Shown in pieces: positions 48,333-51,375 of a stretch of 64,000 nt of DNA. The position numbers and the translations under genes are program-made. Below the pieces are notes generated by a model that was given only the letters and a program-made list of their open reading frames with translations, searched no databases and was not told the origin of the DNA. Numbering within the stretch: the first letter of the stretch is position 1; the number at the start of each line of letters is the position of its first letter. The stretch lies in NCBI RefSeq assembly GCF_000346615.1, contig NZ_ANNU01000017.1, positions 1 through 64,000 on the forward strand. Reading direction: 5' to 3'. This stretch comes from Nafulsella turpanensis ZLM-10 (GTDB lineage: Bacteria; Bacteroidota; Bacteroidia; Cytophagales; Cyclobacteriaceae).

Positions 48333-48721
48333 AAAATTATTCCTATCGAACCCTTCTTCTGATAGAAGAAGAGGCCATTGGAGACTGAAAAGTCCAAAGA
48401 TAAAAAAATAGAGGAGTTAATAAATATAATCTGCCCATATTCATGCAAAAATCGGCTCAGACAAACGGGTAAATACAAATAATTTCTTGGATAAGCGAAA
48501 CCCTTAAACGCAGGAACGGTATAAACAAGCCACGAGTCTGAAGAGGAGTGATAAGGCGAAAAAGCGGCCAAAAAGTCCCTAAACCTTAGAATTTAAAAGT
48601 CTGCCTCTAAAAACTGTTACACCTGAAACATTAAAATAATTATCGGGTTAATAGTAACTGTATGGCTATCAGCCGTATAATAACTAAAACATTTTTTTTG
48701 TTGAACCAAAATTTTTATCGT
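48333..48721. other. Intergenic region before the EF-hand cluster
   Basis: About 390 bp of AT-rich sequence between the divergent carboxyltransferase gene and the first EF-hand gene. No gene or clear regulatory motif was found. An in-frame start at 48662 would only add a non-signal-like leader to the lipoprotein. Confidence 0.4.
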
Positions 48722-49390
48722 ATGAAAAAGCTGACAAATGAAACAAAATTAAGCTCTCTGCTTCCAACCAAAACCATCGGAAGCCTGCTAACTGCCGGAC
48801 TTTTCCTTTTTGGCGCCGCTTCCTGCGGACCCGCAAATGAAGAAAATGCAGTAGCAGAAGACGAAGTATATGAGGAACCACTTGCTGAAGATGAGGCATT
48901 TGCCGAGGACGAAGCATTAGCAGAGGGTGATTTTAATGAGTGGGATACCAATGATGATGAACTTTGGGATGATAATGAGTTTGAAACCGTAGCCAATGAC
49001 GCTGGTCTATACGAAGGTTGGGATGAAGATGCAGACGGCTTATATTCAGAGGACGAAGTAGACGCAGGTCTTTTCGAAGTTTATGATGAAAACGATGATG
49101 GTTTCCTTGATGAAGAAGAATACTCTGCCTGGAATACTGCCTGGGGCGGTGAGTACGAAGAGGAATTCGAAGCATGGGATGCCGATGCAGATGGTGTGCT
49201 GGCCGAAGATGAGTTCTTTGAAGGCACTAACGAAGCTGACCTCTACGAAGGCTGGGATGAAGATGGTGATGGCCTTTACAGCGACGACGAGTTGGAAGGT
49301 GGCCTTTTCGAAACCTGGGACGCCGATGATGATGGCTACCTGAGCGATGAAGAATATAACACAATCGGTTATAACTTCTGGGGTATATAA
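48722..49390 (+). CDS. EF-hand repeat lipoprotein, paralogue A
   Basis: A 222-aa acidic lipoprotein. The start at ATG 48722 (MKKLTNETKLSSLLPTKTIG) gives a lipoprotein signal ending FLFGAASCG. An acidic linker (about 40-70) precedes six EF-hand-like loops at about residues 75-215. Loop sequences include DTNDDELWDDNE, DEDADGLYSEDE, DENDDGFLDEEE, DADADGVLAEDE, DEDGDGLYSDDE and DADDDGYLSDEE. All have acidic or Asn residues at positions 1, 3, 5 and Glu at 12. Five of six are preceded by Trp. Loops are grouped as two sets of three. It has its own terminator. Calcium binding is inferred; the role is unknown. Confidence 0.82.
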   Translation: MKKLTNETKLSSLLPTKTIGSLLTAGLFLFGAASCGPANEENAVAEDEVYEEPLAEDEAFAEDEALAEGDFNEWDTNDDELWDDNEFETVANDAGLYEGWDEDADGLYSEDEVDAGLFEVYDENDDGFLDEEEYSAWNTAWGGEYEEEFEAWDADADGVLAEDEFFEGTNEADLYEGWDEDGDGLYSDDELEGGLFETWDADDDGYLSDEEYNTIGYNFWGI

Positions 49391-49427
49391 TCCTTATGAA
49401 CTTTAACTGAACTCTGAAAAGAGATAA

Positions 49428-49463
49428 AAAAAAAGCCTCCAGCTGAATGGGGGCTTTTTTTTT
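49428..49463 (+). terminator. Terminator of EF-hand gene A
   Basis: GCCTCC / GGGGGC stem (one G-T pair) with an 8-nt loop, flanked by an A-run and nine T. Confidence 0.8.
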
Positions 49464-49580
49464 GTTCTTCCATTACCCCAGGGTGTCTTCACCTCAATCA
49501 TTTCAGCTTTAACGCAACCCTGTAGTCCAGAAACGTATACTATAGCATAAAACTAATTTTCTGAATTAACTTTTTAAACT

Positions 49581-50333
49581 ATGAAAATAAGAACATTTAA
49601 AATAAAAAACCGTAAGCCTTTTTCTCTTCAAAAGCTTGGCACTCTTTTTACGATTTTCCTTTTCTCCTGGGGAGCTATTTCCTGCGATGCAGGCAGCGGA
49701 GTAGATGAGGACGACAGCATTGCCGAGGAAACTGCAGAAATAAACAAAGGGCTGGAAGAGCAGCCGGAATGGGCAAGGGATGACGTCCAGAACCTGGGAA
49801 ATGACGTGGAAGAAGTGGAAGAAGGAGAAATAGAGAACGATGAGGGCGCAGTGGAGGGGAATCCTATCACTCCTGTTACCGAAGAAGCCTTTTATGAGTG
49901 GGATAAAGACAACGACCGGCGCTGGAATTCGGAGGAATTCAGATCCAGGGTAGAAAATGTAGGCCTGTACGAGGAGTGGAATATGGGTAACGATGAGGTT
50001 TTCTCCGAAAATGAATTCCATGGCAGCTATTTCGATGAATGGGATGATGATAATGACGGCTATCTGGAGAGCGACGAATACCGCGTAGGCTACAGAGACT
50101 GGAGAGACGATTATGCTGAAAACTTCACTGAATGGGACCTAAACCAGGACAACAGGTTAGAGCTTGCCGAGTATGAAGCTGGAATGAGAGAAACCGGTCT
50201 TGTTGATGAATGGGATGTTGACAGAGATGGCAATTTAACAGAAGATGAGGTAAACACGGGAATATTTAACAGCTGGGACCAAAACGGAGATGGTTACCTG
50301 GAGTTTGATGAATATAATGAAGTAGATGAGTAA
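49581..50333 (+). CDS. EF-hand repeat lipoprotein, paralogue B
   Basis: A 250-aa acidic lipoprotein with a basic leader and lipobox near WGAISCDAG. A long acidic linker (about 45-100) is followed by six EF-hand-like loops at about 107-245. The loops read DKDNDRRWNSEE, NMGNDEVFSENE (degenerate), DDDNDGYLESDE, DLNQDNRLELAE, DVDRDGNLTEDE and DQNGDGYLEFDE. Trp precedes all six. The spacer between the two three-loop modules (YRVGYRDWRDDYAENFTEW) parallels those of the sister proteins. It has a 14-bp terminator hairpin. It is more diverged than A is from C. Confidence 0.82.
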   Translation: MKIRTFKIKNRKPFSLQKLGTLFTIFLFSWGAISCDAGSGVDEDDSIAEETAEINKGLEEQPEWARDDVQNLGNDVEEVEEGEIENDEGAVEGNPITPVTEEAFYEWDKDNDRRWNSEEFRSRVENVGLYEEWNMGNDEVFSENEFHGSYFDEWDDDNDGYLESDEYRVGYRDWRDDYAENFTEWDLNQDNRLELAEYEAGMRETGLVDEWDVDRDGNLTEDEVNTGIFNSWDQNGDGYLEFDEYNEVDE

Positions 50334-50368
50334 GATTTAAATATCACTGCTTGTAGAAAGTCTTAGTT

Positions 50369-50410
50369 AATCCGCCTCTGAACAGTGTTTCAGAGGCGGA
50401 TTTTCCTTTT
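50369..50410 (+). terminator. Terminator of EF-hand gene B
   Basis: A perfect 14-bp stem (AATCCGCCTCTGAA / TTCAGAGGCGGATT, loop of 6) followed by TTCCTTTTTT. Confidence 0.85.
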
Positions 50411-50573
50411 TTAGAATAAATAATTCACTTTCTGTTTAAGAATACAAACCATGAACTAACGGTCTGCATACCAATACCTTAAGCAACAAATAACAGCAGC
50501 TTTTCGTAACAATCTTGCGTTTTACCGTATATATAAGTAGTTAATTTTTTTATTGAACTTAAACTTTTTTGAA

Positions 50574-51305
50574 ATGAAAAATTTAGATAACCAAAAAACA
50601 AGCAAATGGTCTGCCGCGAAAGTATTCGGTGGAGTAGCTACTGCCTTTCTGTTTTGCTTTGGTACCGCCACCTTTGCACAGGACTATGAGCCGGTTTCCG
50701 ATACAGAAGTAGATGAATTTACGGAATGGGATGCCGATGCAAACGAAATGTGGGATGAAAACGAATTTGACTCCAGCCTAGGAGATAACGGTATTTTTAA
50801 CGACTGGGATACTGACGATGACGGATTCTACTCTAACGATGAGTTTAGTACCGGGCTTTTCGACCAGTGGGATGAAGACGAGAATGGCGAACTTGACTAT
50901 GATGAATATTCCGCAGGTAATTCTGCCTGGGAAGACGATTTCGGCGACAACTTCAGCGAGTGGGACACCAATGATGATAACATCATTGATACTGAAGAGT
51001 ATAATGCAGGTTTAGATGATGCCGGTATCTATGATGAATGGGATACTGATGATGACGAATTATTCAGTGAAGATGAATTTAACACCGGACTTTTCAGCAC
51101 CTGGGATGAGGACGAAGATGGATTCCTGAACGATAGGGAATATACCAAATCTAACTACGACGCCTGGTACGACGATGAAGAACTCTTTAATGAAGAAGAG
51201 GAAGATGTTGAAGTAGAAGAAGGTGTTGATGAAGAAGAAGGAGTCCTTGAAGAAGAAGGGATACTTGAAGATGAGGATGAGGTACTGGAAGGTGACGATA
51301 TGTAA
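50574..51305 (+). CDS. EF-hand repeat secreted protein, paralogue C
   Basis: A 243-aa acidic protein with a type I signal peptide (cleaved near TATFAQ), unlike the two lipoprotein sisters. The start is ATG 50574; an upstream in-frame codon at 50553 adds seven residues. Six EF-hand-like loops lie at about 52-190: DADANEMWDENE, DTDDDGFYSNDE, DEDENGELDYDE, DTNDDNIIDTEE, DTDDDELFSEDE and DEDEDGFLNDRE. Each is preceded by Trp. A C-terminal tail of about 40 residues is nearly all Glu, Asp and Val with EEEGVLE/EEEGILE repeats. It ends at a bidirectional terminator. Confidence 0.82.
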   Translation: MKNLDNQKTSKWSAAKVFGGVATAFLFCFGTATFAQDYEPVSDTEVDEFTEWDADANEMWDENEFDSSLGDNGIFNDWDTDDDGFYSNDEFSTGLFDQWDEDENGELDYDEYSAGNSAWEDDFGDNFSEWDTNDDNIIDTEEYNAGLDDAGIYDEWDTDDDELFSEDEFNTGLFSTWDEDEDGFLNDREYTKSNYDAWYDDEELFNEEEEDVEVEEGVDEEEGVLEEEGILEDEDEVLEGDDM

Positions 51306-51343: not shown

Positions 51344-51375
51344 AAAAGCCAGCGGGAATACACCTGCTGGCTTTT
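51344..51375. terminator. Bidirectional terminator between EF-hand gene C and uppP
   Basis: AAAAGCCAGC / GCTGGCTTTT stem with T-runs on both strands. Confidence 0.8.

Follow-up and report, generated by a model that had tools for sequence, protein, structure and literature searches.

The window, that is, the whole stretch of 64,000 nucleotides of Nafulsella turpanensis ZLM-10 that we analysed, carries three consecutive rightward genes (Table 1). As a first-pass annotation of this DNA had stated, their products are acidic, exported proteins with six EF-hand loops apiece; two of them are lipoproteins (lipobox FGAASC in protein 1, WGAISC in protein 2) and the third has a signal peptide of the ordinary type (ATFA-Q). 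Protein 3 ends with a Glu/Asp tail of about 43 residues (window 51174-51302), which proteins 1 and 2 lack. The ORF finder gave longer starts for gene 1 (48662) and gene 3 (TTG at 50553). Both are unlikely, since the former would make the gene overlap with its promoter box and the latter is a TTG upstream of a good ATG. The flanking genes lie on the minus strand and we take them, from reading their sequence, to be acyl-CoA carboxylase-like and undecaprenyl-diphosphatase-like.

Table 1. Coordinates of the genes and of the predicted promoters and terminators, as positions in the window
Feature	Position	Strand	Description
Gene 1 ECF-type promoter	48654..48679	+	GTAAC-N15-CGTATA, ends 42 nt before ATG
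Protein 1	48722..49390	+	222 aa, lipoprotein, six EF-hand loops, linkers 14/9/19/14/9
Gene 1 intrinsic terminator	49428..49465	+	14-bp stem, U run; -18.6 kcal/mol, z -4.0
Gene 2 ECF-type promoter	49514..49539	+	GCAAC-N15-CGTATA, ends 41 nt before ATG
Protein 2	49581..50333	+	250 aa, lipoprotein, six EF-hand loops, linkers 14/9/19/14/9
Gene 2 intrinsic terminator	50369..50412	+	14-bp stem then U-rich tail; z -9.1
Gene 3 ECF-type promoter	50506..50531	+	GTAAC-N15-CGTATA, ends 42 nt before ATG
Protein 3	50574..51305	+	243 aa, ordinary signal peptide, six EF-hand loops, linkers 14/9/19/14/9, acidic C-terminal tail
Terminator-like hairpin after gene 3	51344..51375	.	13-bp; z -6.7

The three proteins contain 18 loops of 12 residues. 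Glu is found at loop position 12 in all of them, and Asp or Asn at position 1 in 18, at position 3 in 17 (the remaining loop has Gly) and at position 5 in 18. Trp directly precedes the loop in 17 of the 18 cases, the exception being a Tyr before loop 3 of protein 1. These counts bear out the earlier description of the loops. The same is true of the duplicated three-loop module that had been proposed: the internal duplication is real, as the two 64-residue halves of proteins 1, 2 and 3 are 55%, 39% and 52% identical, respectively, in ungapped alignment. In our reading, each protein consists of two repeats of a 78-residue unit, and each unit holds three predicted calcium loops of 12 residues.

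A search of Pfam has returned generic EF-hand models only, with protein 1 barely above the cut-off, protein 2 clearly above it (EF-hand_6, E 2.8e-14) and protein 3 below it (18.5 vs 25 bits). No specific NCBIfam model reaches its cut-off for any of the three, in agreement with the earlier remark that they belong to no named family. The label of a XopAW type III effector, which the proteins of the window match with 24-28 bits (cut-off 120), was rejected because only EF-hand sequence is common to both. Judging by the loop residues, the generic Pfam models (proteins 1 and 2) and the predicted helix-loop-helix structure, the proteins belong to the EF-hand superfamily as had been proposed, and binding of Ca2+ is predicted.

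Next, we considered the spacing of the loops. Successive loops are separated by 14, 9, 19, 14 and 9 residues, identically in proteins 1-3. By comparison, ordinary EF-hand pairs lie about 25 residues apart, and the hands of lanmodulin (LanM) 12-13 (PMC10232371, PMC11845868). Linkers of 14 and especially of 9 residues would let one helix serve two adjacent hands; since a 9-residue linker leaves space for one helix, the exit helix of hand 2 would at the same time be the entry helix of hand 3. The AlphaFold2 models of proteins 1 and 3 (pLDDT 82.6 and pTM 0.76 for the former, 77 and 0.70 for the latter) are consistent with this: both predict loop-helix units at all six loops, with helices flanking the loops and short strands at the centres of most of them, and in both, residues 45-56 and 123-134 each form one helix of 12 residues, located between loops 2 and 3 and between loops 5 and 6, respectively, such that neighbouring hands have a helix in common. 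The global arrangement in these models is uncertain, because the inputs were four sequences only and the confidence differs among the five models of each job. A Foldseek search with the models matched EF-hand proteins at a whole-fold TM of about 0.4 or less, except for lanmodulin with 0.45 (normalised to its own length, one model), and gave no global match to either model. While the first-pass annotation had been right about the EF-hand identity, the export and the lack of a family name, it missed this fused spacing, as well as the common ECF-type promoter described below.

A chance origin of the 14/9/19/14/9 pattern can be excluded, because the spacing is conserved exactly or almost exactly in relatives from other genera and from one flavobacterium, at an identity of 27-49%. 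Contig C49 of the present genome carries a fourth close paralog, again with linkers 14/9/19/14/9, and more distant relatives are found on contigs C10, C19, C21 and C49. Matches were found in 30 of 297 genomes of the same taxonomic family (E<=1e-8) and in 2 of 396 genomes across the phylum (E<=1e-10), one of which is this genome; Salinimicrobium terrae is one named relative. We see that 44 of 45 related Bacteroidota proteins have a linker of 9 or 14 residues, and that these two lengths are dominant (60 and 49 occurrences, respectively). Trp precedes 160 of the 223 loops of the family, and some relatives are four-handed, with linkers 14/23/9. The viral contigs and plasmids that we searched held no relatives. 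We found no paper on a fused EF-hand family of Bacteroidota in the open-access literature searched, although one may exist. The best explanation is that the three genes are paralogs and belong to a family of exported "fused EF-hand" proteins in Bacteroidota.

Three of the relatives (L009, L013 and L017, from genomes G030 and G001) have the same type of signal sequence, and carry long stalk-like repeats, rich in Thr/Gly or in Asn/Gly/Thr, between or after the EF-hands.

The "tandem array" of the first-pass annotation is not an operon: each gene has a promoter and a terminator of its own. The hairpin after gene 3 may serve both strands, because a run of A precedes it and a run of T follows it. 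The genes are separate units which appear to be co-regulated.

The promoters share a box, GYAAC-N15-CGTATA. It lies upstream of the three genes of the window, and the C49 paralog and four genes from two other genomes have it upstream as well. When these 8 upstream regions are aligned, the promoter positions without any variation are exactly those of G-AAC and CGTATA; elsewhere, the start codon and two isolated bases alone are invariant. AAC at -35 and CGT at -10 are the hallmark of promoters recognised by ECF sigma factors (PMC8103513), and an ECF sigma regulon is expected to show them at constant spacing, which is what the box does. Given the match to this hallmark, we regard it as a strong inference that the box is an ECF-sigma-type promoter. 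A scan for sigma-70 sites found them no more common than in shuffled sequences. Among the 14 above-cut-off matches to sigma region 4 (Sigma70_r4_2) in the genome, none has an exact box nearby that would indicate autoregulation. Separate from the promoter box, a TGTTGAA-like stretch lies about 20-30 nt before the start codon (window 48690-48721 and 50545-50573), and recurs in the leaders of several of these genes, those of relatives included.

How specific is the box for this family? From base composition, 0.07 boxes are expected in the window, and the three observed are all at these genes. The 4.8 Mb genome has 8 exact boxes, compared with 4 for the backward control. Four of the 8 occurrences are at the four six-hand paralogs; of the remaining four, three lie inside genes and one in front of a short ORF that is apparently frameshifted. 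Elsewhere, we found the exact box ahead of one family gene in G001, three in G030 and three in G525, which brings the total to 11 family genes in four genomes from two genera. Neither G561 nor G014 has the exact box at its family genes; in G561, which falls within the same two genera, there is a version with two mismatches. EF-hand genes are split cleanly by the box: the close family genes have it with 0 mismatches, 40-51 nt before the start, and other EF-hand genes have at least two mismatches. The box was found in these two genera only, and the distant EF-hand relatives do not have it in exact form.

The short ORF with an exact box mentioned above, MEDLLKKFIYTGVGLL..., is located on contig C5 (L093:3787-4363, about 139.8-140.4 kb of the contig). 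It seems to be frameshifted relative to the coiled-coil, phasin-like frame that follows, which is either a real frameshift or an assembly error.

On balance, we lean towards the view that the three proteins are ECF-induced, envelope-anchored Ca2+ buffers; we infer both the metal and the buffering role. Each gene would be transcribed singly from its own ECF-sigma-type promoter and, because every copy has such a promoter, an envelope signal would induce all of them together. The periplasm or the outer membrane would then fill with high-capacity Ca2+-binding lipoproteins, whose most likely job would be to buffer or hold Ca2+ at the envelope during stress. More tentatively, in these two genera one ECF sigma regulon may consist almost wholly of fused six-hand calcium lipoproteins, the copies being scattered and multiplied in the genome with each keeping an identical promoter; this would amount to a bacterial response dedicated to calcium buffering, with an EF-hand arrangement of its own.

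A single case favours calcium as the metal: a Na+/Ca2+ exchanger encoded elsewhere in this genome bears a related domain as a fusion. The protein in question, encoded on the minus strand of contig C10 (L024:7248-8627, about 174.2-175.6 kb), combines Na_Ca_ex (PF01699) with a C-terminal four-hand EF domain with linkers 14/23/9, a four-hand cousin that is distinct from proteins 1-3. The gene adjoins that of a lipoprotein which is 63% identical to this EF domain, and an exchanger on C13 that lacks the EF domain is 85% identical to the fusion protein. The fusion has the look of a recent event and ties this type of domain to Ca2+ transport, though by this one case only. It was rejected as a general rule, since among 198 genomes it occurs in this one alone. 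A CDF-like cation transporter is also found beside the C10 gene.

The same fusion, together with the ECF-type promoter, can be read in another way. The proteins could be calcium sensors whose Ca2+-dependent folding passes a signal to a partner, for example an anti-sigma factor or a transporter, with the promoter forming part of a feedback loop; a precedent is the periplasmic EF-hand protein CaBP of Caulobacter, which is tied to SigV (PMC13171946). This is the main rival to a buffering role, but we think it rather unlikely: up to four similar copies per genome, with nearly all loops intact, suit capacity better than a dedicated switch, and in the related loci that we read there is no conserved gene neighbour, nor was a partner found.

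The first-pass annotation had suggested a calcium buffer, an adhesin or a scaffold. Our evidence points rather to a calcium buffer or a sensor, and nothing in it specifically supports an adhesin. The lipoprotein anchor with its long spacer, and the Thr/Gly-rich stalks of the relatives L009 and L017, would fit calcium-stiffened surface rods or adhesins that keep other molecules off the outer membrane. On the other hand, neither Pfam nor NCBIfam reveals an adhesive or carbohydrate-binding domain, and the AlphaFold2 models consist of helical EF-hands with no obvious rod, so that we consider this improbable.

Finally, proteins with similarly fused adjacent hands might bind lanthanides, as a Bacteroidota counterpart of lanmodulin. 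The linkers of 9 and 14 residues straddle the 12-13 of LanM (PMC10232371), the LanM structure 8fns is match 3 in Foldseek for one model (probability 1.00, with the TM of 0.45 normalised to LanM), and there are weak matches of the family to the NCBIfam LanM model NF053806 (17-47 bits, at most 31.7 for the proteins of the window). These scores are far below the cut-off of 135 bits, however; LanM is absent from the top 50 matches of the better model, Pro occupies loop position 2 in only 1 of the 223 family loops (0 of 18 in the window), and no PQQ methanol/alcohol dehydrogenase scores above cut-off in the genome. The commonest residues in the family are Asp or Ser at loop position 9 and Gly at position 6, which is the pattern of calcium hands. 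We therefore consider a lanthanide counterpart very improbable and lanthanide binding by proteins 1-3 unlikely. Membership in the lanmodulin family itself was rejected on the low bit scores, the six hands, the linkers other than 12-13 and the near-absence of Pro2.

The dedicated ECF-type promoter opens the way to direct tests of how the bacterial envelope handles calcium, a subject with few defined components. Furthermore, nearly every loop has a Trp next to it that provides an intrinsic probe for Tb3+ luminescence. The close spacing and fusion of EF-hands have been taken to mark out lanmodulin and lanthanide chemistry (PMC10232371). Fused hands in a calcium-type family that has no lanthanide context would show that the spacing alone is insufficient for a lanthanide protein, and the fused EF-hand family is a natural comparison set for what makes one.

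Of the known systems, calmodulin and troponin C (Pfam EF-hand_1, _6 and _7) share with the present proteins the 12-residue loops with Asp or Asn at positions 1, 3 and 5 and Glu at position 12, and the aromatic residue before the loop. However, canonical hands own both an entry and an exit helix, whereas the 9-residue linkers found here fit one, and the best whole-fold TM is about 0.4. By description only, the proteins can be likened to two bacterial ones. CaBP of Caulobacter (CC_2752; PMC13171946) is likewise an exported multi-EF-hand protein connected to an ECF sigma factor, but it has three hands, is soluble in the periplasm and is linked through the neighbouring sigV gene; EfhP of Pseudomonas aeruginosa, an EF-hand protein implicated in Ca2+ responses (PMC9132961), has two hands instead of six. 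Lanmodulin (NF053806; PDB 8fns, 6mi5) is also small and exported, with shared helices and with loops much closer than about 25 residues. It differs in having four hands at 12-13 residues, whereas the present proteins have six, arranged as two three-hand modules with linkers of 14, 9 and 19, and show almost no Pro2, a Trp before the loop and no lanthanide-enzyme context.
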